A DNA stretch of 64,000 bases from Calothrix sp. PCC 7103 (lineage in GTDB: Bacteria > Cyanobacteriota > Cyanobacteriia > Cyanobacteriales > Nostocaceae). Shown here in pieces: positions 1 through 64,000 of this stretch. The stretch lies in contig NZ_KB217478.1 of the NCBI RefSeq assembly GCF_000331305.1, positions 8,215,481 through 8,279,480 of the forward strand, in the 5' to 3' direction. The notes below the pieces were generated by a model. It worked only from the letters and a program-made list of their open reading frames with translations, searched no databases and had not been told where the DNA came from. The stretch's first letter is position 1. The number at the start of each line of letters is the position of its first letter. Both the position numbers and the translations under genes were made by a program.

Positions 1-592
1 ATTCTGCCGAGTCGTATAAATATACTTTTGCTCGATTAAACAAACTTGTCAAATCCTTCACAAAAGATTCAACTATATACACATTACATTTTTCTTGTAA
101 AGCTGGTATTAAATCTTTTATTAAGTAACTTGAAGATTTACGCGCTTGTACTAGTACATCAATATCGCGCGTTATATCTAAATTTGTAAATTCATCGCTA
201 ATTTGATTTGGCAAGTAGTAAATTAGAGAGTTAGGCGCCAACTGTCCCCAATATCCCATTGTATTACGGCTAACCGTGATAATTGGAATACTCGCCGGAA
301 GCTTAAATCCGTAACCCGCACTATGAGCATGATATATAACATTATGAGACTTTAAAGAAGGCGCCAGTTTAGGAACATCGAATCCCCAACTAACAACAAA
401 AATAACATCTTCAAGACTAGATGCTTTAAGAACATCATCCAAAAAAAGCTTATCAGGTTCGCGTTGACGATAAGTAACAACCTCAGCATCACAAATTGTT
501 TGGGCAATACTAAGCGTCTTCAACTCCGCGAACAGACCACCACAAGTAAATTTAGCATCTGTACCAGGCAATAAAAAGTAAAGTTTTCTCAT
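1..592 (-). CDS. Glycosyltransferase (GT4-like), C-terminus cut by window edge
   Basis: An open frame runs from an ATG at 592 off the left edge and gives about 197 residues. The start MRKLYFLLPG is followed by CGGL, by YHAHSAGYGF near residue 100, by a SRNTMGYWG segment and by YLPNQIS. This order matches the N-terminal acceptor-side domain of GT4/GT1-type glycosyltransferases. The UDP-sugar-binding C-terminal half would lie outside the window. The gene starts 17 bases after the DUF2809 gene on the same strand, so the three minus-strand genes are probably one transcript. The exact sugar and acceptor cannot be told. Confidence 0.7.
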   Translation of the reverse strand, partial: MRKLYFLLPGTDAKFTCGGLFAELKTLSIAQTICDAEVVTYRQREPDKLFLDDVLKASSLEDVIFVVSWGFDVPKLAPSLKSHNVIYHAHSAGYGFKLPASIPIITVSRNTMGYWGQLAPNSLIYYLPNQISDEFTNLDITRDIDVLVQARKSSSYLIKDLIPALQEKCNVYIVESFVKDLTSLFNRAKVYLYDSAE

Positions 593-609
593 ATTTTGTA
601 TGGGCAGGT

Positions 610-1017
610 TCACTTACGGATTTTAACCAACCAGCGCATCCAAAACCACCCAGCAAAGCTACCAAAAAAGTAAGATATAAAATCAGACAAAACAAAAGTA
701 TTACCTAAAACAAGCCTCCCCACCAACGTCGCACGTACTGCTTCAAGAAAAGGATGTTTCACTAGCTGTAAAAACTCTATTCCACACGTAGCAACACAAA
801 CTCCAACCGCAGTCCATAACGGAGAAGCTTTCGGATAAACAAAACCAACTAATAAAATCCAAAATATCTCATAAGCAACGCTCCCTAAAAAATCATACAG
901 CCACTCTAGTCCAAATCCTTGTGCAAAGCGCACAAAATAACCTAGTGGCACAATAAATATAATGCTAATAAGTAGCGCTACACGGTACCGAAAAAAATTT
1001 CTTTCTAACTTTGCCAT
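610..1017 (-). CDS. DUF2809 family membrane protein
   Basis: This 135-residue protein has about four hydrophobic segments, near residues 13-30, 45-62, 65-82 and 108-128. The motif RATLVGRLVLGNTFVLSDF before the last segment is the signature of the DUF2809 family (small integral membrane proteins, function unknown). Its ATG lies inside the end of the DUF6391 gene with a 13-base overlap, which indicates translational coupling. The glycosyltransferase follows directly. Assignment to the family is fairly secure; no role can be given. Confidence 0.75.
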   Translation of the reverse strand: MAKLERNFFRYRVALLISIIFIVPLGYFVRFAQGFGLEWLYDFLGSVAYEIFWILLVGFVYPKASPLWTAVGVCVATCGIEFLQLVKHPFLEAVRATLVGRLVLGNTFVLSDFISYFFGSFAGWFWMRWLVKIRK

Positions 1018-1667
1018 TGAACTTTTACGAAATGCGCTTCACGTCCCCACATATCCCTAGTTTTAATAATACTCTCGATACTGAGATTAAAAGGTACAGA
1101 CGTTGTTAAGTAACGCTGTGCTAAAGCGCCAACATAAGGCGCTAACTCACCAGCAAGAGTGGTAGCTATTCCCAACCCAAACATCTGTTCGATTAATCCG
1201 CGCGGCATAATTAAATGCATTCCTACTGCACATCCCGCAGTCAGTAACATTGATGTCGATACATTAGTACCACAGCGTGGATGAACAGCTAAATTCCACT
1301 CACCGTCTTTCAAACGTTGAAGACCGTTGGTAACAGCGCGACGTAAATCACTGATATTAACATCACCGTAGAGAAAAAAGCCTTGTTCGGTAGATAATCC
1401 TCCAAGTGATTCGTCATCTACCTGAAAATTACGAGGTAGCAGCGAAATAAACCGGGAAGCACGGGGTTGACTCAAAAGCCACACAGTCGCGTGTTCAAGT
1501 GCATGAACTTGACGCAGCATTAAAATTTCTTTTAAGCCAGGTACAAAATGCAGTACTGCAAGCAACTCCTTATCTTGGTTAGGCTGAGGAGTAATAAAAT
1601 CCAACAAATCAAGATTTACAAAATCAAGGGGATTGGAGTTACCCTGTACAGAAACAGAGGTATTCAT
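1005..1667 (-). CDS. DUF6391 family protein
   Basis: This 220-residue protein is of a type common in cyanobacteria. It has a histidine-containing RQVHALEHATVWLL segment (about residues 52-65), a conserved HPRCGTNVS segment near residue 130, and a hydrophobic stretch after it. The HALEH and HPRCGTN segments suggest a metal-binding or enzymatic site, but the function is unknown. It is the first gene of the minus-strand run toward the left edge and overlaps the next gene by 13 bases. Confidence 0.7.
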   Translation of the reverse strand: MNTSVSVQGNSNPLDFVNLDLLDFITPQPNQDKELLAVLHFVPGLKEILMLRQVHALEHATVWLLSQPRASRFISLLPRNFQVDDESLGGLSTEQGFFLYGDVNISDLRRAVTNGLQRLKDGEWNLAVHPRCGTNVSTSMLLTAGCAVGMHLIMPRGLIEQMFGLGIATTLAGELAPYVGALAQRYLTTSVPFNLSIESIIKTRDMWGREAHFVKVQWQS

Positions 1668-2120
1668 TAAAACACCGCCCTCTTAGAATTAATGGAGTAT
1701 TGAAGATATTTTTAATTTAACTCTTGTATCAATCAAACAACTACAAATTTTTATTGAGTTTTGCGTAGAAACAAAGAAACCGGGTTTCTGTTGATAACTT
1801 GTAATAAAAACGACAATTTTGCGCGAGATTCCCGGTTTCTAAGATTTGGGAAAAAATTAGACCGAAGCTTTTAAACTCCGGTCTGTATTATGAATGCGCT
1901 TGCGCGCGTATGTTTAGCAGGTTTGAAGTTGTCTTTGTTTTTTACGGAGATAGCGTGATAATGCAACACCTGTTCGCCAAAAGCTACGTATAACCAAGAA
2001 GAGAGAAATTGAAGTTGCTTTCTGACTGGTTGACACACAAGCTGCGACGTGAGGAGAACGGACAGCAACCAGCCATAATTGCTGAGTCGTGTTTAAAAGT
2101 TGAAAGAAGCGAATATGTAT
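1668..2120. other. Intergenic region with palindromic repeats
   Basis: No convincing gene is seen in these 453 bases. Two copies of a GAAACCCGGTTTC-type palindrome lie at about 1776-1789 and 1829-1842. The second is missing one arm, and another copy of the family is at 29828-29842. A terminator hairpin for the LuxR gene lies at 1850-1884. A minus-strand open frame at 1871-2068 overlaps that terminator and has no ribosome binding site, so it is not annotated. Confidence 0.6.
1850..1884 (-). terminator. Rho-independent terminator downstream of the LuxR gene
   Basis: Read on the minus strand, a 9-bp stem (AGACCGGAG with CTTCGGTCT, one G-U pair) with an 8-base loop is followed by a T-rich run (AATTTTTT). 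It lies about 240 bases past the stop of the LuxR-type gene, so the transcript would have a long 3' tail. Confidence 0.65.
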
Positions 2121-2390
2121 TCAATCAGGTTGGTTTGGGTTTGGCAGAGTACAACAGTTCACATCATTTAGGCAAACTTTGCCCCAACGCATTGCCCAAC
2201 GCACAAGCGCGACACGGTTATCGGTTTGCGTTTTGGTAAGAATGTTGCTGATGTGGTTATCAACTGTGCGCTTGCTAATTTCAAGCTTGGCTGCAATATC
2301 TTGGTTAGTTAAGCCAGCGGCTACTAAGTCGATAATTTGCAGTTCTCTGTCTGAAAGACTTACAGGGGTCTGTGACTCGCCACTAGCCAT
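2121..2390 (-). CDS. Small LuxR-type HTH transcriptional regulator
   Basis: This 89-residue protein is almost only a GerE/LuxR DNA-binding domain. It has LSDRELQIIDLVAAGLTNQD at residues 13-32, IAAKLEISKRTVDNHISNIL at 33-52 with the recognition helix KRTVDNHISNI, and an alanine/tryptophan-rich end. There is no receiver or ligand domain, so its activity is probably set by its level or by a partner. The start is well supported: AGGAGG (minus strand, 2403-2408) lies 12 bases before the ATG. A terminator follows at 1850-1884. Its targets are unknown. Confidence 0.85.
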   Translation of the reverse strand: MASGESQTPVSLSDRELQIIDLVAAGLTNQDIAAKLEISKRTVDNHISNILTKTQTDNRVALVRWAMRWGKVCLNDVNCCTLPNPNQPD

Positions 2391-2749
2391 GTTTTATCGA
2401 ATCCTCCTAGTATATGTACTCAATCGCTCTTTCTCATTCTAGAAGATTCTTTGCCTGGTGGCTGTTTCAACTGTTAGCAGTAATACGATAATGAATAATT
2501 CTTTAATTGACCAGTTAGCCGTGGCACATTTTTGTGTTACTTAGTTTTTTATTATACGGTATATATGAAGAAAATACCAGCGCATTCAAAAGCGAAATGT
2601 TACTTTTAATTCATACAAAGTGAAATCAGTAATAAAAGTTCTTGTAGATTTGTGTGAACAACTGCCGACGGTGAACCAAAATTATTGTAGATTTTTAGTT
2701 GTAAATTTTCTAGATGGAATTGTCCTTCTAAAGAAACGGACAGGAGCGC
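2391..2749. other. A+T-rich intergenic region
   Basis: These 359 bases separate the divergent LuxR gene and fructokinase gene and must hold both promoters. Apart from the LuxR ribosome binding site (2403-2408) and a GGACAGGAGCGC stretch just before the fructokinase ATG, no repeat or palindrome stands out. Confidence 0.5.
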
Positions 2750-3718
2750 ATGAGTAATCCCCGTGTATTGTGTCTCGGCGAAGTTTTATTTGACCTCTTA
2801 GCTGACCAACTAGGACGTGACCTCTCTTCAGTTGAGTCGTGGACTCCCTATCCAGGAGGGGCACCAGCTAATGTTGCTTGTGCGCTAGTCAAGTTGGGAA
2901 TACCTGCGGGTTTCGTTGGTTGTGTGGGTGAAGATGAACCAGGTAATGAATTAGTAAAGCTTTTAAATGATGTTGGGGTTGATACAACTGGTTTACAACG
3001 GTCTGAGTCGGCGCCAACGCGGCAAGTTTATGTAACAAGAAGTTTAAGCGGCGACCGGACTTTTGCGGGGTTCGGTAATTACGACACTAGCGAGTTTGCA
3101 GATACACGTCTCAACGCAAAAGAATTACCACCATCATTATTTGAAGCAGCAGATATTTTAGTTTTAGGCACTTTAGAGCTAGCCTATCCCGAAAGCGCCA
3201 ATGCTGTGCATCATGCTTTGGACTTGGCGGAAAAATACGACATGAAAATTATTCTTGACGTGAACTGGCGCCCAGTATTTTGGCATAATCCAGCTATAGC
3301 GCCGGATATAATTCGTAAAATCTTTAAAAAAGTAGATTTTGTTAAGCTTGCCAAAGAAGAAGCTGAATGGTTATTTGATACCAGTGATGCAGGTGCTATT
3401 AACTATCGTTTAGACACAGTTGAAGGTGTTTTAGTAACAGACGGTGAAAACGGTTGTGCTTATTGTTTAGATCAAAACGAGGGCAAGTTACCAGCTTTTC
3501 CTGTATCTGTAGTCGATACAACAGGCGCCGGTGATAGTTTTCTCGCTGGCTTTATTCATCAACTATTAACTCACGGTATTCCAAGTCTTAAAAATGAAGA
3601 AACCGCGCGCAAAATTATACAATACGCAAGTGCAGTTGGTGCATTAACTACTTTAAAACCAGGCGCCATAGCTTCCCAACCCACTCCCGCCGAAGTTGAA
3701 GCATTTTTATCATCGTAA
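2750..3718 (+). CDS. PfkB-family carbohydrate kinase, probable fructokinase
   Basis: This 322-residue protein is a ribokinase/PfkB-type sugar kinase. LGEVLFDLL at residues 9-17 and PGGAPANVACAL at 35-46 form the substrate side. The PfkB signature DTTGAGDSF is at about 255-263, with the catalytic base Asp in GAGD and the anion hole around it. Family knowledge: such cyanobacterial proteins phosphorylate fructose to fructose 6-phosphate with ATP, often in sucrose breakdown. The substrate is inferred from overall similarity to fructokinases and could be another ketose. AGGAG just upstream supports the ATG at 2750. A gluconokinase converges on it. Confidence 0.85.
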   Translation: MSNPRVLCLGEVLFDLLADQLGRDLSSVESWTPYPGGAPANVACALVKLGIPAGFVGCVGEDEPGNELVKLLNDVGVDTTGLQRSESAPTRQVYVTRSLSGDRTFAGFGNYDTSEFADTRLNAKELPPSLFEAADILVLGTLELAYPESANAVHHALDLAEKYDMKIILDVNWRPVFWHNPAIAPDIIRKIFKKVDFVKLAKEEAEWLFDTSDAGAINYRLDTVEGVLVTDGENGCAYCLDQNEGKLPAFPVSVVDTTGAGDSFLAGFIHQLLTHGIPSLKNEETARKIIQYASAVGALTTLKPGAIASQPTPAEVEAFLSS

Positions 3719-3719
3719 G

Positions 3720-3750
3720 TTGGGTTACGCAAAGCCTCCACCCAACCTAC
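3720..3750. repeat. Dispersed palindromic repeat, TGGGTTACGCAAAGCC family
   Basis: The unit starts TGGGTTACGC and ends CCACCCAACCTAC, so the GGTTGGGT-type ends can pair. Relatives lie at 7680-7732, 14199-14226, 15485-15516, 20282-20314, 49013-49089 and 50302-50330, always between genes or at gene ends. Here it lies between convergent genes and may act as a transcription barrier. Confidence 0.75.
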
Positions 3751-4232
3751 AGTAGTGTTAGCTGTGCGCGTATTTGCTGGATTATAGCTTCGGGGGAAGA
3801 TGAAATGTCTACTTTGATGCTGTTTGATGGTTCTTCGAGGGTATTAAACTGACTTTGGAGCAGTGTTTCGGGCATAAAATGATTTTGGCGCCGTTTTAGT
3901 CGAGCTTCGATTGTTTCAAATGAACCAAATAGATAAACTATTTTAATTTCGTTGTTACCATTAAGATATTGACGATAACTAGCTTTTAGTGCGGAGCAAG
4001 CTAGTACAGCAGAACGATGTTCTAATAACCATTTGTGAATTAAAGCTTGTAATATTTCTAACCAAGGTATTCTATCTGCATCTGTGAGGGGAATACCTTG
4101 CTGCATTTTACTGACATTAAATTGAGGATGATAATCATCGGCATCATGAAATTCGTAACCTAACGACTCTGCTAGCATTTTGCCAATCGTTGATTTGCCT
4201 GAACCTGATACACCCATGACAATAATTATCAT
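3747..4232 (-). CDS. gntK: Gluconokinase
   Basis: This 161-residue protein has the P-loop GVSGSGKST at residues 7-15 and the DADDYHP segment at about 30-36 that marks the GntK branch of the shikimate kinase-like fold. The length is typical (about 160-175). It phosphorylates gluconate to 6-phosphogluconate with ATP, feeding the oxidative pentose phosphate pathway. It converges on the fructokinase gene, and its last codons touch the repeat at 3720-3750. Confidence 0.88.
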   Translation of the reverse strand: MIIIVMGVSGSGKSTIGKMLAESLGYEFHDADDYHPQFNVSKMQQGIPLTDADRIPWLEILQALIHKWLLEHRSAVLACSALKASYRQYLNGNNEIKIVYLFGSFETIEARLKRRQNHFMPETLLQSQFNTLEEPSNSIKVDISSSPEAIIQQIRAQLTLL

Positions 4233-4414
4233 TATTTTGATGTTGTATAACTAACTTGTCGCCTAATAAGCCACTTATATTTATGATTATGCCATTAAGA
4301 GTTTCACCCGAACTTCAAGCAAAATTCTAAAATTAGAGATGTTTCGAGAAAGCCACTGCGACCAAAGAAGGCAAAGTAATGTATACTTTTATATTTTTGA
4401 TGCGGTAGGCAAGA

Positions 4415-5848
4415 TTGATTGAATCTGGAGAACAAGCCTTGTCTGAAGAAATAAAAAGCGTTCAACCCCCATTAAAGTTTATAGCCCCAAATTTTAACCG
4501 ATTTTTCCTCCAGATTGTCCAATGGTCATTACCAGTACTATTGCGCTTTCGTCTTCGACGTTGGTTACCTGCGAGAATTATTCGAGTTGAAACAGAGAAC
4601 GTTTTGGAGTTAGCTAAATTATATGAACAATTCCAAGCTGGTAAGGTTCGCTTCCTAATGGCATTCCGTCATCCTGAAGTCGATGACCCCCTATCAATGT
4701 TTTATTTAATCTCACATGCTATCCCTAACAGTGCCCGTGAGCATGGTATCAAATTAAAAGACCCAGTTCATTCCCACTTTCTCTATGAACGAGGTATGAC
4801 TATATGGGCGGGTGATTGGCTGGGAAAATTTTTCTCATTCTTAGGTGGATTCCCGATTCGTCGAGGTAAAAGAGTTGACAGAACTGGTTTACAAACAGCA
4901 CGCGACTTATTTCTCAATAGTAATATCCCTTTAGCTATAGCACCAGAAGGCGCCACTAATGGGCACAGTGGTAAAGTTAGTCCATTAGAACCAGGTGTTG
5001 CCCAGTTAGCATTTTGGTGTATAGAAGATTTACAAAAAGCCAATCGTCCGGAAGAAGTATTTATAGTCCCGATAACCATTCAATACAGTTACCCTAACCC
5101 ACCTTGGAAAAAACTCGATTGGCTCTTAAGTAAATTAGAAGCAATGAGTGGACTTGAGACAATATCAATAGAACCTGCATCTAAACGCGAAGAAATTTAT
5201 TACCAGCGTATACTGCGTCTTGCAGAACGTATACTTTCAGAAATGGAAGATTTTTATCAACGTTTTTATCATCAAACCCTTGTACCAATTGACTTAGACC
5301 CATCATCTGACACTACCGAACTTATCATTGCTCGTCTTCACCGATTACAGGATATAGCTTTGCGTGTAAGCGAGCAACACTTTGCTTTACAAGCACAAGG
5401 AAACTTTATTGACCGTTGTCGCCGTTTAGAAGAAGCAGGTTGGAGTTATATTTATCGTGAAGATTTACCTTCTTTAGATACATTAACACCACTAACGCGC
5501 GGACTAGCCGACTGGGCAGCAACAGAAGCAGCAAAAAGAATGCAGCATATGCGTTTAGTAGAAAGCTTTGTTGCCGTTACTGCCACTTATATTAAAGATA
5601 AACCAACAGTCGAGCGCTTCGCCGAAATAACATTACTAATATATGACATGATGTCCCGTCTTCAAAATGATACATTTCCTGGGCGCCCTAACTTAGGATG
5701 GCGCCAGTCAAAAGTCACAGTCGGCAAACCAATATCAGTAACCCAACGCTGGCAGAGCTACAAACAAGACCGTCAATCAGCCAGAAAAACCGTCACCGAC
5801 CTAACTCAAGACTTACACAAAGCTCTACAAAGCATGATTAGCAACTGA
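4415..5848 (+). CDS. PlsC-type phospholipid/glycerol acyltransferase family protein
   Basis: The HX4D catalytic motif is visible as HPEVDD (H86, D91), followed by GGFPIRRG and APEGATNGHSG, the usual glycerolipid acyltransferase blocks. At 477 residues it is about twice the size of a plain PlsC and carries a long C-terminal domain without transmembrane segments that I do not recognise. This long form is known in cyanobacteria. Both possible starts are TTG: 4415, or 4439, which has GGAG eight bases upstream (4427-4430). The later one is better supported by the ribosome binding site. The substrate is not deducible. Confidence 0.8.
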   Translation: MIESGEQALSEEIKSVQPPLKFIAPNFNRFFLQIVQWSLPVLLRFRLRRWLPARIIRVETENVLELAKLYEQFQAGKVRFLMAFRHPEVDDPLSMFYLISHAIPNSAREHGIKLKDPVHSHFLYERGMTIWAGDWLGKFFSFLGGFPIRRGKRVDRTGLQTARDLFLNSNIPLAIAPEGATNGHSGKVSPLEPGVAQLAFWCIEDLQKANRPEEVFIVPITIQYSYPNPPWKKLDWLLSKLEAMSGLETISIEPASKREEIYYQRILRLAERILSEMEDFYQRFYHQTLVPIDLDPSSDTTELIIARLHRLQDIALRVSEQHFALQAQGNFIDRCRRLEEAGWSYIYREDLPSLDTLTPLTRGLADWAATEAAKRMQHMRLVESFVAVTATYIKDKPTVERFAEITLLIYDMMSRLQNDTFPGRPNLGWRQSKVTVGKPISVTQRWQSYKQDRQSARKTVTDLTQDLHKALQSMISN

Positions 5849-5852
5849 TGAT

Positions 5853-5900
5853 AAACGGGTGTAACGGATGGTTAATTCATCTACCCGTTACATCCGTTGT
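5853..5900. repeat. Dispersed repeat with CGTTACATCCGTT unit
   Basis: It contains GTAACGGATG followed by CCGTTACATCCGTTGTATCCGTTGCC in two pieces, so it can fold on itself. A related stretch lies at about 39958-39986. It sits directly after the acyltransferase stop. Confidence 0.55.
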
Positions 5901-6069
5901 ATCCGTTGCCTAACTCACATCTTGCACCAAGAAAAATTGATGGAATTTAGTCACTCAGTATTAAATCCAAAACCATTGATTTGACCATAAAAGCCAATCA
6001 AAAGAATGTAGCTTTATCGCACCTGTTTTAAGTTAATCTGGGTTTATACGTAGAGGTGCAAGATATCAG

Positions 6070-6201
6070 CTAACCCTTACTCAAGCGCACATGATCCATA
6101 ATTTGCTGCTTGCGAGAAGAGGTGTCAAGCTTTGGGTTAATATAATCACCCTTACTACGGGTCAAGTGTTCCATAATTTTCTTTTGGCGTTCAGACTGCA
6201 T
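6070..6201 (-). CDS. 43-residue peptide with two copies of an IM(E/D)H..SKG motif
   Basis: ATG at 6201 opens a 43-codon frame. It contains the segment RQKKIMEHLTRSKG (residues 5-18), a 12-residue linker, and a second copy KQQIMDHVRLSKG ending at the stop. The duplicated, strongly charged motif is good evidence that this is a real coding sequence and not noise. It lies 52 bases downstream of the P450 gene on the same strand and may share its transcript. I do not recognise a named family. Each half could form a short amphipathic helix. Confidence 0.7.
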   Translation of the reverse strand: MQSERQKKIMEHLTRSKGDYINPKLDTSSRKQQIMDHVRLSKG

Positions 6202-6253
6202 AACTTTAACTTTTCTTAACTAATATGAAGTAATATATCTATATTAGTAGAAA

Positions 6254-7648
6254 TTACTGACTTGTAACCAATTTGTGTGATTCTTTACGCGCGCCTTTTC
6301 CTGTCATAATCATCTTGACACCCTTTGCAGGCGCCAGAGTTACACCACGACGACGAGGAATTTCGGGTTGCGACTCAACGAGTGATAATTGATAATTCGA
6401 TAAAATGGTAGCAATTACCAACTTCATCTCAAAAATTGCTAAAGCTTCACCTGCACAACGACGCGCACCACCACCAAAAGGCATAAACTCGTAAGGAGAA
6501 AACTGACGCTCTAAAAAGCGTTCGGGTCTGAATTGGTTTGACTGTGGGTATAAATCTTCGCGATGGTGTACAAGGTACATGCAACATAGTAATAGCGTAT
6601 TAGGAGGAATTTGATGCCCTAAAATTTCTACTTGCTCTTCGGCAATGCGCGGAAATGTCAGCATTGCAACCGGGTAAATTCGTAATGTTTCGTTGCAAAA
6701 TGCTGTTAAGTAAGGTAATTTAGACAGACTTATAGGGTCATTATTATTGCCCAAAGCATCGATTTCATTGAGTATTTTTTCGTTAGTCTCTGGTATATAG
6801 TGGCTCCAGTATAAACCCCATGCCATTGCAGTTGCGGTAGTTTCATGTCCAGCAAGTAACAGCGTCATTAACTCATCGCGTAATTCTTTATCAGTTAAAC
6901 CTTGTCCTTGTTCATCACGTGCGGACATTAATAATGAGAGAATATCAATTCGATTAGGGTCTGGATTTTCGCGACGTGCGGCAATTTCAGCATATAAGAT
7001 TTTATCAATTGAGGAGCGCTGACGTAAAAAATTACCCCACGGACTTAATGCACCTAAATCTTTTTGTAGAAAAGGGAAAAATAGGAAGCTTGAAGAGAAA
7101 GGAGATTTAAAAATATCTAACATTTTCCCCATTAAATCTTTGACTTGCTGGCACCTTGCACCTTTGTATAAGCCAAAAACTGATTGAAGAATAACTTGCA
7201 TTGATATTTCTTGCATTGCTGAACGTGCTAAAAATGCCTTGTTCAATGCAATATTATCCATAACCTGTTTGGTTAAATTGACAATTAAATCGCCATATGA
7301 TTTTATTCTATCTCCATGAAACGATGGCATCATTAACTGGCGCCGTTTGCGGTGGTCTTCACCATCGAGCATGATAACCGAATAATCACCAAGTAACGGT
7401 TCTAGTATACCGTTATACTTTCCTGGGGCAGTGAATTTTTTACGGTCGTTAGTTAAAATTTCTTGAATAGCTTGGGGATGGTTAACAAATATAAGTCTAT
7501 TATTAGACCTAAAGATATTAGCGCTAAAAATATCAGGATACTCACTAACTGCATTTTCCATATAACCTATAGGATTGGCAACCCATTGCAGTTTTTGCAG
7601 AAATCCAGCAGACTTAACGGGGTTTGGTAGTTGAATTTGTCTGTTCAT
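6254..7648 (-). CDS. Cytochrome P450, CYP110-like
   Basis: This 464-residue soluble P450 has the I-helix oxygen-binding motif AGHETTATA (about 267-275), the K-helix ExxR as ETLR, a PERF motif, and the heme loop FGGGARRCAGEAL with the cysteine ligand near residue 397. The proline-rich N-terminus and overall layout resemble CYP110, a family typical of filamentous cyanobacteria whose members oxidise fatty acids or terpenes. No membrane anchor is evident. No terpene synthase or redox partner is adjacent, so the substrate is open. Confidence 0.85.
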   Translation of the reverse strand: MNRQIQLPNPVKSAGFLQKLQWVANPIGYMENAVSEYPDIFSANIFRSNNRLIFVNHPQAIQEILTNDRKKFTAPGKYNGILEPLLGDYSVIMLDGEDHRKRRQLMMPSFHGDRIKSYGDLIVNLTKQVMDNIALNKAFLARSAMQEISMQVILQSVFGLYKGARCQQVKDLMGKMLDIFKSPFSSSFLFFPFLQKDLGALSPWGNFLRQRSSIDKILYAEIAARRENPDPNRIDILSLLMSARDEQGQGLTDKELRDELMTLLLAGHETTATAMAWGLYWSHYIPETNEKILNEIDALGNNNDPISLSKLPYLTAFCNETLRIYPVAMLTFPRIAEEQVEILGHQIPPNTLLLCCMYLVHHREDLYPQSNQFRPERFLERQFSPYEFMPFGGGARRCAGEALAIFEMKLVIATILSNYQLSLVESQPEIPRRRGVTLAPAKGVKMIMTGKGARKESHKLVTSQ

Positions 7649-7679
7649 TTTAACAATACTTCTTTTATATTACTGTATG

Positions 7680-7732
7680 TTGGGTTGCGCCTACGGCGTA
7701 CTACGTAAACGCAAAGCCTCCACCCAACCTAC
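7680..7732. repeat. Dispersed repeat, TGGGTTACGCAAAGCC family (long form)
   Basis: It has the same ends as the copy at 3720-3750, with about 20 extra bases (CTACGGCGTACTACGTAAAC) after TGGGTTGCGC. It lies between the divergent-side start of the P450 gene and the end of the YifB gene. Confidence 0.7.
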
Positions 7733-7758
7733 TTCTGATTATAATCGTCGTGTTGGTG

Positions 7759-9288: not shown

Positions 9289-9352
9289 TTATATTTATGG
9301 CCTTTTGTTATAGCAATATTCCTTTGTCTTATCATTGGAAATTGGCGAATGA

Positions 9353-9730
<378 letters not shown>

Positions 9731-9794
9731 AGCCTATATCTAATTGCGCCGGAATCCTTGCCGTATAGGGTTTTGATACAAGGTGCCGATTCTT

Positions 9795-9822
9795 GTAGAG
9801 ACGTGATACATCACGTCTCTAC
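9795..9822. repeat. GTAGAGACG-type palindromic hairpin repeat
   Basis: Outer arms GTAGAGACGTGAT and ATCACGTCTCTAC are fully complementary. Other members are at 11216-11243, 20358-20382 (partial), 22514-22541, 42744-42771, 44506-44534 and 55787-55812. The centre differs between copies while arm pairing is kept. Followed by T-rich sequence here, it could also serve as terminator of the HIT gene. Confidence 0.8.
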
Positions 9823-9854
9823 ATTTTTATACACGTAAAATATTTAACCAATTA

Positions 9855-9884: not shown

Positions 9885-9956
9885 TACTCACTGTTACATA
9901 ACAAAATGTTAAGTTAAATACCTTTACAAAACTCAATAAAAGATTTAACTTAGTTA

Positions 9957-9982: not shown

Positions 9983-9998
9983 ATTATTCATCACATAG

Positions 9999-11096
<1,098 letters not shown>

Positions 11097-37875: not shown

Positions 37876-39633
37876 ATGAACGTTACACAAGAACAACTAA
37901 AATTAAAAGTAGAACAGGCAACGGTAGCGGCGTTTGGCGCCGACTTAGCGGGAACTGACGTAATGTTAGTATCCACAAATAATCCGAAATTTGGTGATTA
38001 TCAAGCAAACTTAGCTTTACCGTTAGCCAAAAAGTTAAAACAGCAACCGCGCGCTGTAGCTCAGGCAATTGTAGATAAACTTAATGTATCAGATATTTGT
38101 GAGGCGCCAGAAATAGCAGGGCCAGGGTTTATTAACTTACGGTTAAAAACAGTATATCTCGAAGCGCAACTCAGTGCAATACAAGCAGACGCACGGTTAG
38201 GTGTACCAATATCACAACATCCCAAACGGGAAATAGTAGACTTTTCGAGTCCCAACATTGCCAAAGAAATGCACGTTGGACACTTGCGGTCTACAATTAT
38301 TGGGGACAGTATTGCTCGGATTTTAGAATTTAAAGGTCATGATGTACTGCGGTTAAACCATGTTGGTGACTGGGGTACGCAGTTTGGCATGTTAATTACT
38401 TACCTACGGGAAGTTTACCCCGAAGCATTAACAACTGCAAACGCATTAGATATTGGTGACTTAGTAGAGTTTTATAAAAAAGCCAAAGCACGGTTTGACG
38501 CAGACGAAAAATTCCAAGAAACCGCGCGCTCTGAAGTTGTACGATTACAAGCAGGCGCCGAAGATACAACTCACGCTTGGAAACTTCTATGCGAACAGTC
38601 ACGCAAAGAATTCCAAATAATATATGACTTGCTTGATATTAACTTGACCGAACGCGGCGAATCTTTTTATAACCCTTATTTAAAGGCAGTTGTGGAAGAT
38701 TTAGAAAACGCAAGTTTATTAGAAGAATCTGATGGCGCCAAAGTAGTATTCTTAGAAGGATTTACTAACAAAGAAGGTAAACCATTACCGTTGATTGTCC
38801 AAAAAACTGACGGTGGATATAACTACGCTACTACAGACTTAGCAGCACTACGACAACGGATACAAAACGAAGGCGCCAAACGGTTAGTATATGTCACCGA
38901 CGTTGGACAAGCAAACCACTTTGCAGGAGTGTTTCAAGTAGCACGTCGGGCAGGGTGGATACCCGATGACGTAGAAATCGTACATGTGCCATTTGGCTTA
39001 GTATTAGGAGAAGACGGCAAGAAATTTAAAACCCGTTCAGGTGATACAGTACGGTTGCGGGATTTACTAGACGAAGCAGTAACTCGGTCGCGCAATGATT
39101 TAGAAACACGGTTAAAAGAATCTGGTAATAACGAAACGGAAGAATTTATAGCTAATACTTCCAAAGTAGTTGGTATCAGTGCCGTTAAATATGCAGACTT
39201 AAGCCAAAACCGTACAACCGACTATAAATTTAGCTTTGATAGAATGTTGTCGCTCAAAGGTAATACGGCGCCGTATATGTTGTATGCTTACGCACGGGTT
39301 AAGAGTATTGGACGTGAAGGTAATATTGATTTTAGTAAATTTGGCGCCGACGCAAAAATTCTGTTACGCGAAGAAACTGAATTTACCCTAGCCAAACACA
39401 TACTACAACTAGGTGAAGTAATTAATACCGTTGAACAAGAATTATTACCTAACCGCTTGTGCGAATACTTGTATGACTTGAGCGACAAATACAACAAGTT
39501 CTACGAAAACTGCCCCGTTCTAAAATCAGAAGAACCAGTACGAACATCACGGTTAGCACTATGTGATTTAACCGCGCGTACCTTAAAACTTGGTTTATCA
39601 CTACTAGGAATCCAAGTTTTAGAGCGCATGTAA
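37876..39633 (+). CDS. argS: Arginyl-tRNA synthetase
   Basis: This 585-residue class I synthetase has an N-terminal Add-1 domain (to about 110), [18 protein letters not shown] with the HVGH signature, the catalytic Rossmann fold, [18 protein letters not shown] in place of KMSKS as is common for ArgRS, and a DALR anticodon domain ending in [11 protein letters not shown]. Length is normal. The gene is unusually dense in GGCGCC sites: eight between 37936 and 39342. Confidence 0.97.
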
Positions 39634-55768: not shown

Positions 55769-55786
55769 TAGTTGGGAGTTGGGAAT

Positions 55787-55812
55787 GTAGAGACGTGACA
55801 TGCCACGTCTCC
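55787..55812. repeat. GTAGAGACG-type palindrome, right arm shortened
   Basis: GTAGAGACGTG and CACGTCTC arms around ACATGC. It lies between the convergent nblS and zinc-ribbon genes. Confidence 0.65.
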
Positions 55813-55823
55813 TAATGTTTGAA

Positions 55824-56192
55824 TTAAGTAAAAGCAGCTATCATTAAACAAACAACAAACAAAGCCACAAACAGCAACAGCGTTTGATTTTGTCGTACCC
55901 AACTCTGTAAACTTTCATTAGAACTGGGTTTACGATACTGCTGTTGCTTCTGCGTTTGATACTCCTCAAAATTTTGATATAAAGTACACTCTTTTGCCGT
56001 AGGACGCTGCGGATAATTACAGCTATCATCTACATGGTAAGTACAAGTGTCACACAAATACTCACCTTTTCCCGCACGGTGCAACGGAATACCAGGATGT
56101 CCAAACGCTTTTAACTCAGTTCTACAAAAAGGACAAGTGACAGCTTGTGAGTCAACTTGCTGTTTACAACGGGGACAAAATATACTAGCCAC
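55824..56192 (-). CDS. Zinc-ribbon protein with C-terminal membrane anchor
   Basis: This 122-residue protein has MASIFCPRCKQQVDSQAVTC (CPRC and then CPFC, residues 6-24), a second cysteine set (CDTCTYHVDDSCNYP), and a membrane segment at the end (about 100-120). The zinc ribbons face the cytoplasm if the tail is inserted. Related cyanobacterial proteins have no proven function. Confidence 0.75.
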   Translation of the reverse strand: MASIFCPRCKQQVDSQAVTCPFCRTELKAFGHPGIPLHRAGKGEYLCDTCTYHVDDSCNYPQRPTAKECTLYQNFEEYQTQKQQQYRKPSSNESLQSWVRQNQTLLLFVALFVVCLMIAAFT

Positions 56193-56324
56193 CTGAATAA
56201 ATATAATTAATATAAGGTTTACTCGATTGTATCCGACCCAATTGATAACAAATTAGTTAAGTAAGGATTACTCAACCCGTCTAGTTTTTCGCATATTATC
56301 GTAGAACAGGCGCCCATTCCTATG

Positions 56325-57914: not shown

Positions 57915-57991
57915 TATTCAGATATATGCCCTAATTTATATAATAACTTTAATATATTTATATTTAATCTTATTTCTAGACATATTCCTAA

Positions 57992-58612
57992 CTAAGAAGG
58001 TTGAAATTCTAACTGTTGGTCAATCACCCTAATTAGCGTACCAAATGAATCCATTTCAAAAATTAAAACGATATCTCCTATAATTTCTAACGTTTTAATT
58101 GCAAAGCGCGCTTGTGCCAGCAAAAAAATTGTTTCTTCACTTGCATATTCTAAAGATAATATATGCTTTATCGAATCTTCCATGTAAATTGGTATCGCAT
58201 AGTTGAGGTGTTGATTTAATACGTTACTAATCGACCCCATGATTCCATTAATTACAATATTGCCGACTTCGCTAAGTGTACCAATTTTTACTGAGTCTAA
58301 ATCGGGACTACTTATTTCCTCTCCCGTAAGTAAGCTAACTAATGTTGCTGCACTCTCTGTTGGAAAAACTAAGTTTGCTTTCCCCGAAAACGAACCTGTA
58401 AAATTTAATTTTACCGCCGCTAACGAATCTCCATCAAATCTTTTTTCGAGTTCTGCTTGTATCTGACTCAAAGTTAATATGCTAACAACCGGAATTTCTA
58501 AAACAATCCGAGAATCTAACATTTGGTTGAGCATACCAGCAGCTCGACCCACACCAATATTTATTAATTCTTGTAAAGCATCTAAGTGAGCATCTGTTAG
58601 CTGATATACCAT
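57992..58612 (-). CDS. CheC-like phosphatase
   Basis: From ATG 58612 this is 206 residues. Two CheC active-site copies are visible: ALQELINIGVGRAAGMLNQM with Glu and Asn and a following Pro, and TLSEVGNIVINGIMGSI with Glu and Asn. CheC removes phosphate from CheY. AGGAG (minus strand, 58619-58623) lies inside the end of the CheY gene, one base separates the two genes, and they are probably co-translated. The longer frame to 58663 starts inside cheY. Confidence 0.85.
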   Translation of the reverse strand: MVYQLTDAHLDALQELINIGVGRAAGMLNQMLDSRIVLEIPVVSILTLSQIQAELEKRFDGDSLAAVKLNFTGSFSGKANLVFPTESAATLVSLLTGEEISSPDLDSVKIGTLSEVGNIVINGIMGSISNVLNQHLNYAIPIYMEDSIKHILSLEYASEETIFLLAQARFAIKTLEIIGDIVLIFEMDSFGTLIRVIDQQLEFQPS

Positions 58613-58613
58613 A

Positions 58614-58982
58614 TTAAGCTCCTTGATGCTTACAAGCTTCGCGTACAGCTTTAAGCACTTCATTTTCTTTTACTGGCTTATTAATAAACCCTGCGGCGCC
58701 TAATTCCATACCACGGTCACGCGAAGCATCTTGAATGTCAGCAGAAATAATAATAGTCGGAACCTCAAACTTTTCTGCCCGCAACATCTCAAGAAATCTA
58801 AATCCATCAATGTCTGGCATCAGTATATCAGTCAATACACAATCTGGAGTATGTGCGCGTACCATCTCTAAACCTTCCAGACCGTTACTAGCTTCGAGTA
58901 TTTCATAGCCATCGGTTTGGAGGATTTTACGAAGCATCCTACGAGCAAAGGCTGCATCGTCAACAATCAGGATTGATTTCAT
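58614..58982 (-). CDS. CheY-like single-domain response regulator
   Basis: This 122-residue receiver has ILIVDDAAFARRML (acidic pair), CVLTDILMPDIDGF (phospho-Asp near residue 54), a Ser at the switch position in IIISADIQ, and FINKPVKEN with the lysine. No output domain. It is paired with the CheC gene one base downstream and is divergent from cheA. Confidence 0.9.
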   Translation of the reverse strand: MKSILIVDDAAFARRMLRKILQTDGYEILEASNGLEGLEMVRAHTPDCVLTDILMPDIDGFRFLEMLRAEKFEVPTIIISADIQDASRDRGMELGAAGFINKPVKENEVLKAVREACKHQGA

Positions 58983-59248
58983 CGTTCAAATTTTGCCCTT
59001 AAATTATACATTAATTATTTTACACCTGCATAACAATAAATTATATTTTATCATCTATTCAATAGTGGACTAATTGTCAAGTAGCTTTGATACACTTTTG
59101 CAATAAAAATCTATTAACACTAATTAAAAAAATAAACTTCTATCTAAAGGCATAATTTGTATCTACTTCCCGATATAATTTTAAACCATACTAGTTTCAC
59201 TACTTTCATCGTAGAATATTTCATTACCTAGACTAAATATCAAATTGC

Positions 59249-61360
59249 ATGGAGTATATCGATAGTGATGACATCAAAGCCTTTTTGGCAGAAAGCTATG
59301 AAAATATTAATCAAATAGAAAATGATATTGTAGATTTAGAAAAAGCGTCGGTGTCAGTTGATGCACTGTCTCGGATTTACCGATGTTTACATACATTGAA
59401 GGGTAATTGCGGCTTTTTGGCATTTTCTAAGTTAGAGAGACTTGCTCATGCTGGTGAAAGTTTACTCAACCAACTGCGTACAGGTAATTTAACCATAAAT
59501 ACCGAAATTGCCACTGCTCTACTTCAAACAATTGACAGTATTCGTAAAATCCTCACTTCCATCGAAGCTAATAATAACGAAGGCAGCGAAGACTACTCAA
59601 ACTTGATTCAAAAAATAAATATATTCCATTCTAGTACTTCTATCGAAACTACTCCCCTTCCCGAAACTAGCGTTAGTTCTCAAGTTGCTCCCACTTTTAA
59701 TACCTTAGAAACTATTCGAGTTGATGTAGATGTACTCGATAAAATCATGAATTTAGTGGGTGAGTTAATACTATCGCGTAACCAAGTGTTGCAATTCGCA
59801 AATCATGTAGATGATATTGCTTTTACCAAAATCAGCCAAAATTTAAATGTAATTTCATCAGAGTTGCAATTTGTAGTTATGAAAACTCGGTTGCAACCAA
59901 TAAATATAGTATTACAAAAACTACCGCGTGCTGTTCGCGATATCGAAGTTGCTTCACACAAAAGGGTACATCTCGATATTATTGGCGCCGAAACCGAACT
60001 CGACCGCAGTATAATCGAGTTCATCAAAGACCCAATCATGCATATAGTTCGTAACTGTATTGACCACGGAATTGAAACACCAGAAGTACGCACATCACTC
60101 GGCAAACCAATCGAAGGAAAGTTGTACGTGCGCGCGTTTCACGAAGGTGGTACAGTTAATATTGAAATTGGCGATGATGGTAAAGGTATTGAACCAGAGC
60201 TTGTATTAGCAAAAGCATTAGAGCTAGGTTTAATTAATTCTTCACAAGTGCAAACTAAAAGCGAAGCTGAAATTATAAATTTAATTTTTCTACCCGGTTT
60301 ATCTACATCACCTCAAGTTACCAACCTTTCTGGTAGAGGAGTTGGAATGGATGTAGTCAAAACAAATATCGAGCGGGTAAACGGTTCAATACAAGTTTAT
60401 AGTCAGTCAGGACAAGGTACAGTATTTAAAATCAGGATTCCTTTAACTCTAGCAATTATTGGTGCGTTAATAATTACTGGCAATCAACAATGTTTTACTA
60501 TTCCCCAAACTAATGTTCAAGAACTCGTCAGGCTTGAGGGTGATACAATAACCGAACGTATTGATATACTATATGATATTCCTGTATTGCGTTTGCGTGG
60601 AAATATCTTACCTTTGGTCTACCTGAACAAAGTTCTCGGATTTGAAGATGATGTACCATTACATGTACTAAAAAATATAGAAATAGAAACTCTATATATA
60701 GTAGTTATCAATATTGATGAATATCACTTTGGTTTAGTTGTAGACTCAATCGAAGACACTGAGGATATTGTAGTTAAACCTTTAGGAAAACAACTCAAAG
60801 ATGTTTCTATATTCACAGGCGCCACTATTCTTGGTGATGGTAAAATTGCTTTAATCATAGATACAATTGCACTGGCGATACAAGCGGGTGTCACACCTCA
60901 AGCTCAAAAACGTTTCAATACCACACTTATAGATGATAATGAAGAGCACGTTTCGGTACTCTTGTTTGAAGGGGTTGAAAACGCACGCATGGGTATTTTT
61001 CTCACGCTTGCCAACCGTCTGGAAGAATTCGATAGCAAAGACATTAAAATTGTCGGCAACCAAAAGGTCATACAATATAACAATGAAATTATACCTTTAA
61101 TTGATTTAAACGAAGTCTTTTTAGGCGCCTCAAAAATACTACCAGATTCTATAATTCAAGTTGTAGTTATCACTTTCAATCATCATAACTACGGCTTAAT
61201 AGTCAACTCTATCATTGATATTGTAGAAGAACCGTTAAAAATTCAAGGTGTCTCTACCCGTTCTGGTGTGAAAATGCTTGCTACTATTCAGAATGAAATT
61301 ATCGAAATTCTCGATATCGAAAAAATTATTAGTCTTGCCAACCCTTATTTAATCAAATAA
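59249..61360 (+). CDS. cheA: Chemotaxis kinase CheA with two CheW-like domains, no P2
   Basis: This 703-residue protein has an Hpt domain (1-110; CLHTLKGNCGF, phospho-His48), a dimer domain (about 165-225; LDKIMNLVGELILSRNQ), HATPase (about 225-400; HIVRNCIDHG, IGDDGKGIEPE, SGRGVGMDVV), a CheW-like domain (about 405-540), and a second CheW-like domain (about 560-700). A CheY-binding P2 is not seen between the Hpt and dimer parts. Two regulatory domains suggest binding to more than one receptor/CheW type or a different array. It starts the plus-strand chemotaxis run. Confidence 0.92.
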   Translation: MEYIDSDDIKAFLAESYENINQIENDIVDLEKASVSVDALSRIYRCLHTLKGNCGFLAFSKLERLAHAGESLLNQLRTGNLTINTEIATALLQTIDSIRKILTSIEANNNEGSEDYSNLIQKINIFHSSTSIETTPLPETSVSSQVAPTFNTLETIRVDVDVLDKIMNLVGELILSRNQVLQFANHVDDIAFTKISQNLNVISSELQFVVMKTRLQPINIVLQKLPRAVRDIEVASHKRVHLDIIGAETELDRSIIEFIKDPIMHIVRNCIDHGIETPEVRTSLGKPIEGKLYVRAFHEGGTVNIEIGDDGKGIEPELVLAKALELGLINSSQVQTKSEAEIINLIFLPGLSTSPQVTNLSGRGVGMDVVKTNIERVNGSIQVYSQSGQGTVFKIRIPLTLAIIGALIITGNQQCFTIPQTNVQELVRLEGDTITERIDILYDIPVLRLRGNILPLVYLNKVLGFEDDVPLHVLKNIEIETLYIVVINIDEYHFGLVVDSIEDTEDIVVKPLGKQLKDVSIFTGATILGDGKIALIIDTIALAIQAGVTPQAQKRFNTTLIDDNEEHVSVLLFEGVENARMGIFLTLANRLEEFDSKDIKIVGNQKVIQYNNEIIPLIDLNEVFLGASKILPDSIIQVVVITFNHHNYGLIVNSIIDIVEEPLKIQGVSTRSGVKMLATIQNEIIEILDIEKIISLANPYLIK

Positions 61361-61361
61361 T

Positions 61362-61802
61362 ATGAATCAACAATTTTGTACATTTTTTCTAGATAAAATC
61401 TATTTTGGCATCAATGTTATACAAGTGCAAGAAGTAATTAAATGTACACAAATAACACCTGTACCACTGGCACCGCCCGATATTTTAGGTTTAATCAACT
61501 TACGTGGTAAAATAGTTACTATTGTCGATATAAAATCTCGATTAAAAATGAATCAAAATATAAATTATCTAAATTTGGAAAACAATTACAATATTATTTT
61601 GAAACATAAATCAGAATTTGTAAGCTTGATAGTAGATGACATTGGAGACGTAATTGAAGTCGAAGAAAATCAATTTGAACCACCTCCTGCAACTTTAAAA
61701 GGTAAAATTCGCTCTTTACTGCAAGGAGCATACAAATTACAAGACAACTTTTTATTAATTCTAAACATTGATAAACTTTTAGCCAAAAATATTGAAAGTT
61801 AG
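61362..61802 (+). CDS. cheW: CheW coupling protein
   Basis: This 146-residue CheW-fold protein has [20 protein letters not shown] near the start, [20 protein letters not shown] in the middle, and [20 protein letters not shown]. It links CheA and receptors. One base separates it from cheA and eight from the MCP gene, so they form an operon. Confidence 0.9.
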
Positions 61803-61810
61803 AGAAAACT

Positions 61811-63025
61811 ATGAGTCAACTACAGCCAATTTTAACAGCCTTGACCGCATTGAAACAAGGAGATTTTGCTTATCGTTTATCAGTTGAAGAAAATGAACTA
61901 AGCGAAGTACATCAAGCTTTCAACGAGTTAGCAGCTTTTAACGGAAATTTTGCATCCGAAATCATCAAAATGACGCATGAAGTCGGTACAGAAGGAAAGT
62001 TAGACTCGCAAATTATAATCAATAATGCTACTGGATGTTGGAAAGAAATAATCGACAGTATTAATTACATGTCTTCCAAATTGACCGTCCAATTCCGTAA
62101 TATTGCTCAAGTAATGCTTGTAGTATCACAAGGCGATTTATCCCAAACAATTGACATTGAAAATGTAGGCGAATTTCAAGCCCTGACAAGCAGCGTTAAT
62201 GCGATGATAACCAACCTGCGTAGTTCAATTCAAGAAATTACCGAAGTTGCAACTACTGTAGCTTCATCTTCTGAAGAATTTAGTGTTGTCAGTCAAGAAA
62301 TGACGAAAAATGCAACTCAAACTGCCGAGCAAGCAACAAGTGCTTCAGCTTCTGCCGACCAAGTTAGTCAAAATGCAATTATAGTAGCTACCGCAGTCGA
62401 AGAAATGAATGCTTCAATCCGTGAAATTGCTAAAAATGCTGCTGAAGGTGCCCAAGTAGCTACAGGCGCCGTAAAAACTGCTGATGATACTAATACCACA
62501 ATTACCAAGCTTGGTAATAGCAGTATAGAAATAGGCAAAGTCATTAAAGTAATTACCTCAATAGCCCAGCAAACAAATTTATTGGCTCTTAATGCGACCA
62601 TCGAAGCTGCACGTGCGGGAGATGCTGGTCGAGGATTTGCCGTTGTTGCGGGTGAAGTCAAAGAATTAGCGCGCGCAACTGCCAAAGCAACTGATGATAT
62701 TAGTCAGCGTATCGAAACGATTCAAACCGATACAAAAAGTGCTGTTGACGCAATCGCTGAAATTAGTACCGTTATCAATCAAATTAATGATATTCAAAAT
62801 ACTATAGCCAGTGCTGTCGAAGAGCAAACAGCCACTACTAATGAAATTGCTCGCAACGTTACAGAAGCTGCTAAAGGCGCCACCGACATTGCCAAAAATA
62901 TTTCTGTCGTAGCCTTAAACGCTCAAAACACCACAACAGGCGCCGCAAATACATCCCAAGCTGCCAACGAACTATCGCGCATGGCAGTAGATTTACAGAA
63001 AATAGTTAATAAATTTAAATATTAA
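61811..63025 (+). CDS. Soluble methyl-accepting chemotaxis protein
   Basis: This 404-residue receptor has no membrane segment. The N-terminal region (about 1-140) has HAMP-like repeats ([20 protein letters not shown] and [18 protein letters not shown]). The C-terminal signalling coiled coil includes [20 protein letters not shown] and [20 protein letters not shown]. It should sense an internal signal or read a partner protein, as in phototaxis or pilus arrays. The cheB start overlaps its stop by one base (TAATG). Confidence 0.92.
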
Positions 63026-64000
63026 TGAAAATCCATGTGCTTGTCGTTGATGATGCCGTCATCGTTCGCAATCGGGTTTCCAAGATATTATCCACCGTAC
63101 CAGAAATCGAAGCTGTCTCTGTAGCAGCAAGTGGTAAAATAGCCCTTTTAAAAATTCCTCAAGTCCATCCAGATATCATTATCTTGGATGTGGAAATGCC
63201 CGAAATGAATGGTTTAGAGACACTCGTTGAAATTCGACGACACTATCCAAAACTACCTGTAATTATGTTTAGTGCCTCAACTGTATTAGGCGCCGCAACC
63301 ACATTAGACGCTTTAATGTTGGGCGCCAACGATTATGCTACCAAACCAAGTAACCTCACAAGCATAGAAGCAGCAAACCACCACATCCTCACAGAACTAG
63401 TACCCAAAATAAAAGTATTGAGTGCTGAGTACAAAATTCAGGGTAATAAGGCACCTGACAATAGTAGTAAAATACCTCCTTTACTCCCTCCCACTCAGCA
63501 CTCACTAATCAGCACTCACTACTCAGCACTCACTACTATTGATATCGTCGCAATTGGTGTTTCTACAGGCGGACCCAATGCGTTAGCAGAAATTTTACCC
63601 AAAATCCCTGCTAATTTTCCTGCCGCGATTTTGATTGTTCAACACATGCCACCAATGTTTACTAAGCTGATGGCAGAACGTTTGGCATCAAAATGTCAAA
63701 TTCCTGTAGCTGAAGCTATTTCTGGCACAACTGTAAAACCAGGACATATTTGGATTGCACCTGGTGATTTTCATCTAGAAGTTTTGCGCCTCGAAGATAC
63801 CGTAAAACTTATAACTAATCAAGCACCACCAGAAAATTCTTGCCGTCCTGCTGTTGACGTTCTATTCCGTTCGGTTGCAAAAATTTACGGAAACAAATCT
63901 TTGGCTGTTGTGTTGACAGGTATGGGAAAGGACGGATTACAAGGTGCTGAACATATTCGCGCTTGTGGTGGTCATATTTTCGTCCAAGACCAAGCTTCTA
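63025..64000 (+). CDS. cheB: Chemotaxis methylesterase CheB, C-terminus cut by window edge
   Basis: The frame from ATG 63025 runs off the right edge at about 325 residues. It has a receiver (VLVVDDAVIVRNRV, ILDVEMPEMNG, with KP near 113), a linker (about 133-172), and the methylesterase domain (VAIGVSTGGPNAL with the catalytic Ser, IVQHMPPMFT with His, LTGMGKDGLQGA with Asp). It removes receptor methyl groups or deamidates. Only the last residues are missing. The linker DNA (63480-63535) is a run of CTCAGCACTCACTA-type units like an intergenic repeat. Confidence 0.92.
   Translation, partial: MKIHVLVVDDAVIVRNRVSKILSTVPEIEAVSVAASGKIALLKIPQVHPDIIILDVEMPEMNGLETLVEIRRHYPKLPVIMFSASTVLGAATTLDALMLGANDYATKPSNLTSIEAANHHILTELVPKIKVLSAEYKIQGNKAPDNSSKIPPLLPPTQHSLISTHYSALTTIDIVAIGVSTGGPNALAEILPKIPANFPAAILIVQHMPPMFTKLMAERLASKCQIPVAEAISGTTVKPGHIWIAPGDFHLEVLRLEDTVKLITNQAPPENSCRPAVDVLFRSVAKIYGNKSLAVVLTGMGKDGLQGAEHIRACGGHIFVQDQAS

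Follow-up and report, generated by a model that had tools for sequence, protein, structure and literature searches.

In many cyanobacteria, the genome is strewn with a highly iterated palindrome (HIP), HIP1 (GCGATCGC), which is GC-rich, occurs about once per kilobase and, by the account given in the parts of Elhai 2015 drawn on here (Life 5:921, PMC4390886), is tied to an orphan methyltransferase. The same parts describe GGCGCC as an 'alternate HIP' of Calothrix PCC 7103, found also in 19 kb of Calothrix D253, and credit the former strain with two GRCGYC-type methyltransferases, little HIP1 (14 per Mb, next to 159 per Mb of CAGGCGCC) and GATC at 16% of expectation; exceptional or alternate HIPs are argued there to be sporadic, not to occur in clades and not to persist. 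The abundance of GGCGCC in this strain is therefore already known, and Elhai 2015 is the only report of it found in the open-licence PMC literature. Considered here are the GGCGCC sites of a 64,000-nucleotide stretch of Calothrix sp. PCC 7103 DNA (the window; RefSeq assembly GCF_000331305.1, contig NZ_KB217478.1, positions 8,215,481 to 8,279,480 of the forward strand), for which a first-pass annotation had proposed that GGCGCC may take the place of HIP1 in this lineage, with a link to a methylase, to repair or to chromosome structure. GGCGCC is probably an alternate HIP of a Calothrix PCC 7103/Dulcicalothrix clade, linked to an orphan 5-methylcytosine (m5C) methyltransferase. Beyond the parts of Elhai 2015 drawn on, the analysis adds the persistence of the palindrome through a genus, a mutation signature at its inner C, the decay of its sites and the case of a further palindrome, CGGCGCCG; none of these four was found in the open-licence PMC literature searched.

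Abundance of GGCGCC in the window and the genome

The window (38.8% G+C) contains 108 GGCGCC sites by exact count:

1..64000, GGCGCC, 108 sites, the first at 234, 360 and 3010, the last at 63289 and 63322

The first-pass annotation had put their number at about 105 and the chance expectation at three or four; base composition gives 3.4, and an order-2 Markov model 4.9, or 2.6 with the sites masked. An order-4 model expects 54.6, a value raised artificially by the 5-mers GGCGC and GCGCC (120 and 122 copies), most of which lie within GGCGCC itself. The sites are spread evenly (11–18 per 8 kb, largest gap 2,650) over coding and non-coding DNA, as had been stated, with 1778 per Mb inside open reading frames (ORFs) of at least 200 aa and 1542 per Mb outside them, and all three codon frames are used (34/15/21). 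HIP1, given as absent, has a count of 0, and GATC, given as scarce, one of 16 vs 136–146 expected.

The whole genome (G000; 11,584,393 bases in 12 contigs) holds 17,704 GGCGCC in 11.58 Mb (1528 per Mb) and 163 HIP1 (14.1 per Mb), and CAGGCGCC occurs at ~158 per Mb (1852 and 1816 on the two strands), both in line with the 14 and 159 per Mb of Elhai's table. In a 400-kb sample, GGCGCC is the top hexamer by a wide margin, with an observed-to-expected ratio (O/E) of 30, while GATC occurs 0.40 times per kb vs 3.5 expected (~11%, compared with the published 16%). Neither of the outcomes that the first-pass annotation had named as contrary to its proposal, a Markov-corrected GGCGCC count near expectation genome-wide or an abundance of HIP1 elsewhere in the genome, was thus encountered. 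Among other palindromes of the sample, GCCGGC has an O/E of 0.44 and CCGCGG one of 0; the latter (8 copies in the whole genome) was dropped as a null word, being avoided, probably via the Eco29kI-type restriction-modification (R-M) pair present in G000, and hence unfit as a neutral control.

GGCGCC in this genome has the density of an alternate HIP (a GC-rich palindrome at ~1000–2000 per Mb, far above composition) and the low HIP1 background, and, by homology, the encoded methyltransferases L005 and L006 (see below) would be able to modify the site. Although palindromic, GC-rich and as dense as HIP1, it has another sequence and another enzyme; HIP1 proper, a frequent GCGATCGC, is not what this genome carries.

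Distribution among related genomes

Related genomes were counted among 388 of the order, three genus members (G000 included) being counted whole. These three carry 1528, 1711 and 1545 GGCGCC per Mb, whereas the 68 other family members have 0–530 sites per genome; HIP1 amounts to 163, 31 and 88 copies per genome in the genus vs 1117–7721 in the 68. At the locus of the methyltransferase L005, the five nearest counterparts (16–17 kb each; PCC 7102, PCC 7716, NIES-4105, HK-06 and the metagenome-assembled genome C42_A2020_038) have 827–2005 GGCGCC per Mb and, in 5/5, no HIP1; the sixth-nearest, Rivularia T60_A2020_040, lacks GGCGCC altogether, and the O/E stays at 0–4.7 throughout the 75 remaining loci of this search. 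The nearest named locus (99%) is that of Dulcicalothrix desertica PCC 7102, a separate assembly whose density derives from one 17-kb locus. Samples of 400 kb gave 1745 GGCGCC per Mb (O/E 34.7) for PCC 7716 and 1515 per Mb (O/E 28.5) for NIES-4105, and GATC is scarce in all three genomes sampled (G000, PCC 7716, NIES-4105). Some of the genus genomes without a strain name may belong to the named strains. In these three, the gaps between GGCGCC sites follow a nearly Poisson distribution (coefficient of variation 0.97–1.01) with a deficit below 50 bases, and gaps above 1 kb are almost as many as in random placement.

The GGCGCC-rich, HIP1-poor state characterises a clade, namely the genus members examined; the comparison with related genomes that the first-pass annotation had called for thus separates the genus from the 68 other family members. 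In contrast to the sporadic alternate HIPs of Elhai's argument, as far as the parts drawn on go, GGCGCC here persists through a genus.

The associated methyltransferases

G000 has 15 matches to PF00145 (METHYLTRANSFERASES), among them two pairs that are split parts of a single gene or fragments. One match is the following gene:

G000:C7:8004451-8005407, L005, orphan m5C methyltransferase, 319 aa, intact, PF00145 match

A second enzyme, L006 (304 aa), is 58% identical to it. The closest described relative is the HindVP-type R-M system, whose endonuclease (PF09519) we take to recognise GRCGYC. PF09519 has matches, some of them fragments, in 78 of the 388 genomes, and family genomes with a match hold a median of 5 GGCGCC (n=24) vs 23 in those without (n=44; p=0.0017); in the genus, no match was found in any of the three genomes searched. 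When the methyltransferases of PF09519 loci were compared with eleven enzymes of G000 itself, L005 was the best match in 30 of the 30 loci fetched (55–68%; one of the 30 locus enzymes is a 100-residue fragment). Of 32 nearly invariant columns in the recognition stretch of 29 PF09519-locus enzymes, L005 keeps 30 and L006 31. G000 thus shares methyltransferase family and recognition stretch with HindVP-type systems, from which it differs in the unmatched endonuclease and in the huge enrichment, rather than avoidance, of GGCGCC. The orphan methyltransferase for which the first-pass annotation had advised a search may accordingly have a candidate in L005, which by homology would be of GRCGYC type.

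In a quick tree from which identical rows were dropped, 7 genus rows, L005 with its orthologs, group as one clade (SH-aLRT 99), and dN/dS is 0.12–0.14 in the three pairs of three strains; L005 has been passed on vertically in the genus, and purifying selection acts on it in these three strains. Second HindVP-type copies lie on separate branches (L006; G353 with PCC 7716; G380 with NIES-4105; the rows are L006, L285/L300 and L299/L048), so that L005 is the constant element and the second copies seem to have been acquired repeatedly. The parts of Elhai 2015 drawn on mention neither the genus-wide spread, the L005 clade and the second-copy branches, nor the palindrome CGCGCG and the net loss of sites described below.

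Among the other m5C methyltransferases, L002 adjoins a TdeIII-type and L011 the Eco29kI-type endonuclease. L004 (G000:C7:7848143-7849318) has an in-frame stop in G000; its counterparts in G380, NIES-4105 and PCC 7102 are intact (413–430 aa). L003, L007 and L010 likewise have counterparts, each in more than one genus member, and are candidates for the enzyme of the palindrome CGCGCG described below.

HIP1 loss and orphan enzymes in other genomes

Fewer than 50 HIP1 per Mb are found in 19 of the 388 genomes, as read by eye with rounded genome sizes. Five of these (the three genus members, G059 and G136) have an A1-type enzyme, i.e. a match with E at most 1e-60, that is an orphan in the sense of lacking a PF09519 match in the genome. 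GGCGCC exceeds 1500 per Mb in 4/5 of them vs 0/14 of the other HIP1-poor genomes, the highest of which has ~252 (Fisher p=0.0013), the four representing two events because three belong to one genus.

The second event is G059, from another family of the order, with 9489 GGCGCC in 3.8 Mb and 74 HIP1. As a plain second GGCGCC genome it was rejected, since the enriched word is the octamer CGGCGCCG (4834 copies, ~1270 per Mb, vs 18–32 in four genus mates) and G+C is 53.6% (187 kb) vs 44.9% in a genus mate (60 kb); AGCGCCG is likewise raised. Its enzyme, a long branch in the tree, is 53% identical to L005 and has 27 of the 32 recognition columns conserved. The genus mate G007 is also HIP1-poor (134) and has no A1-type enzyme. 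CGGCGCCG in G059 is apparently an independent GGCGCC-centred palindrome in a genome that lost HIP1 and has a HindVP-type orphan enzyme. The G059 rows examined were L216-L226 and L282.

The fifth carrier, G136 (872 GGCGCC; 81 HIP1 in 6.6 Mb; L230-L233), was rejected as a GGCGCC case: GCCGGT/ACCGGC and GCCGGC are strongly over-represented, which makes it an rCCGGy-type genome, a type reported for Oscillatoria PCC 10802 in the parts of Elhai 2015 drawn on (PMC4390886).

Mutation pattern and turnover of the sites

For an account of mutations at the site, 454 kb of G000 were aligned with 800 kb each of PCC 7716 (93.8% identity) and NIES-4105 (86.3%). The three-way alignment contains 69 single-base and 12 multiple-base losses of GGCGCC. 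Of the former, 49 fall on the inner C, 26 as C>T at position 3 and 23 as the opposite-strand equivalent, G>A at position 4. C>T occurs in 60/1166 cases at the inner C vs 9/1166 at the outer C (position 6), a fair comparison because the symmetry of the palindrome makes both equally often wobble positions. Initial inner-C rates without matched context were replaced by rates relative to controls (NNCGNN with four or more G+C; sites are taken as independent in the tests). In the G000 lineage, inner C>T reaches 48/618 vs 126/3326 in controls (p=4e-5), twice the CpG control, and its odds are 3.8 times higher than in the PCC 7716 lineage (p=1e-5). Meanwhile, changes of the flanking positions of the site occur 0.63 times as often as in controls in G000 (25/1236 vs 213/6652, p=0.02) and ~3 times less often in PCC 7716 (11/1096 vs 192/6504, p=6e-5). 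In all three genomes, no one-off form is more over-represented than GGTGCC/GGCACC (O/E 2.07, 1.49 and 1.65; the next 1.05–1.29). The inner C of the G000 lineage therefore behaves as a methylated, deaminating base within an otherwise constrained site, and the pattern suggests GG(m5C)GCC as the modified form.

Sites at which G000 and PCC 7716 differ were assigned by the outgroup. In 81 cases the outgroup carries the site, which G000 has then lost 58 times and PCC 7716 23 times; the 36 cases in which the outgroup is without it are gains or double losses. For eight ordinary hexamers the outgroup-lacking class is the larger in seven, GGAGAA (11 vs 8) being the exception. Losses exceeding gains, the stock in the aligned region is ancestral and shrinking, faster in G000. 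In PCC 7716, GC-rich hexamers are lost twice as fast as GGCGCC (0.167 vs 0.084). GGCGCC is also the most shared hexamer (546/609 sites with PCC 7716 and 283/376 with NIES-4105; rank 1 of 1453 and of 1498 hexamers), mainly as a result of the scarcity of gains, and any over-abundant word would show partly the same; after the outgroup accounting and the matched loss rates, this conservation was no longer counted as a sign of selection on its own.

Origin and maintenance of the palindrome

The events that may have led to this state can be ordered as follows: An ancestor would have lost HIP1, probably via restriction at GATC, as proposed in the parts of Elhai 2015 drawn on. With L005 methylating GG(m5C)GCC, as its kinship predicts, the palindrome may then have multiplied by a fixation bias linked to methylation, be it a bias of repair or selection for methylated sites. 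The present stock would reflect the balance between constraint on the site, as in the PCC 7716 lineage, and deamination of the methylated C, which would account for the excess in the G000 lineage.

Several observations weigh against this account. Of 36 carriers of an orphan enzyme, 31 retain HIP1 (329 per Mb or more), and GGCGCC does not exceed 70 per Mb in any of these 31, so that the orphan enzyme alone is insufficient for GGCGCC abundance. Only one of the two lineages shows the deamination signature: in PCC 7716, the inner C is not hypermutable (C>T 12/548 vs 105/3252, p=0.23). GACGTC and GACGCC, which are GRCGYC sites as well, are depleted, and the specificity of L005 is suggested by homology together with the assignment of HindVP to GRCGYC. 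In the G000 lineage, GGCGCC is lost at the same rate as other GC-rich hexamers (0.188 each; counted from the lowest rate, it ranks 855th among 967 hexamers, whose median is 0.128), that is, without net protection. Finally, the alignment covers one region only, 223 kb of it three-way. The tie to a methylase proposed in the first-pass annotation thus stands by association, through the orphan enzyme, the loss of HIP1, the genus-wide state, the CGGCGCCG case and the inner-C signature of one lineage, whereas the tie to repair or chromosome structure finds no such support, in view of the missing Vsr-type gene (see below), the near-random spacing and the decay of sites in the G000 lineage.

Of the rival explanations, the ratchet described in the parts of Elhai 2015 drawn on survives best, although we consider it somewhat doubtful. 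It postulates a mismatch repair that depends on G(m)C and has methylated GGCGCC as its strand signal; site-creating mutations are preserved until about one GGCGCC per kilobase is reached, abundance being a by-product. The constellation of HIP1 loss and a GRCGYC methyltransferase is the same, the inner-C signature agrees with the base that has to be methylated in the model, and the depletion of GACGCC/GGCGTC is in its favour. However, losses now exceed gains (81 vs at most 36), the near-Poisson spacing with its many gaps above 1 kb is not what a filling driven by coverage predicts, and the genus-long persistence differs from the sporadic, non-persisting alternate HIPs that Elhai held to be the rule. 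A ratchet in the past is compatible with all of these points.

Selection for the sites themselves, as signals for binding or folding of the chromosome or as protective or regulatory marks, is unlikely. It would explain the slow change of the flanks in both lineages and the density of GGCGCC in coding and non-coding DNA alike; however, overall protection is absent in the G000 lineage, spacing is near random and the first rank in pairwise conservation is partly expected of any over-abundant word.

Very-short-patch repair of T:G mismatches by a Vsr-like enzyme, which would turn GGTGCC back to GGCGCC and so enrich the site, is quite improbable. The inner C is indeed the mutating base and apparent gains arise mostly from GGTGCC/GGCACC (4/5), but the Vsr endonuclease (PF03852) had matches in 0/13 genomes searched vs 5/14 control genomes (4 over the cut-off), and GGTGCC/GGCACC accumulates rather than being cleared. 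The few apparent gains may be parallel losses; those derived from GGTGCC/GGCACC (4/13) were rejected as a sign of repair-driven creation, because parallel losses could, by a reasoned estimate, give as many.

Composition, codon usage or a mobile repeat can be dismissed with near certainty: about half of the coding GGCGCC lie in the Gly-Ala frame and other GC-only words are raised (CGCGCG 280 and GCGCGC 240 per Mb in the 400-kb sample), but the O/E of 30 contrasts with those of GCCGGC and CCGCGG, all frames and non-coding DNA carry the site, its flanks are only mildly biased (G is rare just before it) and the 68 other family members lack the abundance.

CGCGCG and other features of the window

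A second palindrome and two ORFs of the window complete the inventory; the names of the ORFs come from the first-pass annotation only:

1..64000, CGCGCG, 29 sites (counted), second over-represented palindrome, the first at 166 and 1199, the last at 62670
10014..11096, + strand, psbA-like ORF, 360 aa, 0 GGCGCC
37876..39633, + strand, argS-like ORF, 585 aa, 7 GGCGCC

psbA had correctly been described as free of GGCGCC, and argS as containing eight, one more than counted. GCGCGC, which had been called frequent, is present in 23 copies, but 22.3 are expected at maximal order, i.e. it is accounted for by its own 5-mers; the palindrome truly in excess is CGCGCG (29 vs 14.3). CGCGCG has 3706 copies in the whole of G000 and 320–730 per Mb in six genus genomes, highest in NIES-4105, vs ~4–38 in eight other family members; outgroup accounting places it under net loss, too (44 vs 20). 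The methyltransferase L004 was considered as its cause and rejected as no simple fit: L004 is interrupted by a stop codon in G000, and CGCGCG is high in 6/6 genus genomes.

Implications

Why methylatable palindromes pepper cyanobacterial genomes is a long-standing question. As a tentative generalization, which we regard as possible rather than probable, orphan methyltransferases may set the life cycle of HIPs: where HIP1 is lost and a lone HindVP-type enzyme is present, GGCGCC-centred palindromes would multiply (at least twice, as GGCGCC and as CGGCGCCG), persist for the lifetime of a genus and decay by deamination at the methylated C. If this holds, a genome can be caught in the act of decaying, and the mutation pattern of a HIP would reveal the methylated base without an experiment. 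The finding bears on two points left open in the parts of Elhai 2015 drawn on, namely at which C the GRCGYC enzyme acts and whether an alternate HIP can last. With a clade in which the palindrome has been replaced, with named strains (PCC 7102, PCC 7716 and NIES-4105) and with a signature at one base, the sequencing of a few strains can answer whether methylation makes and maintains HIPs.

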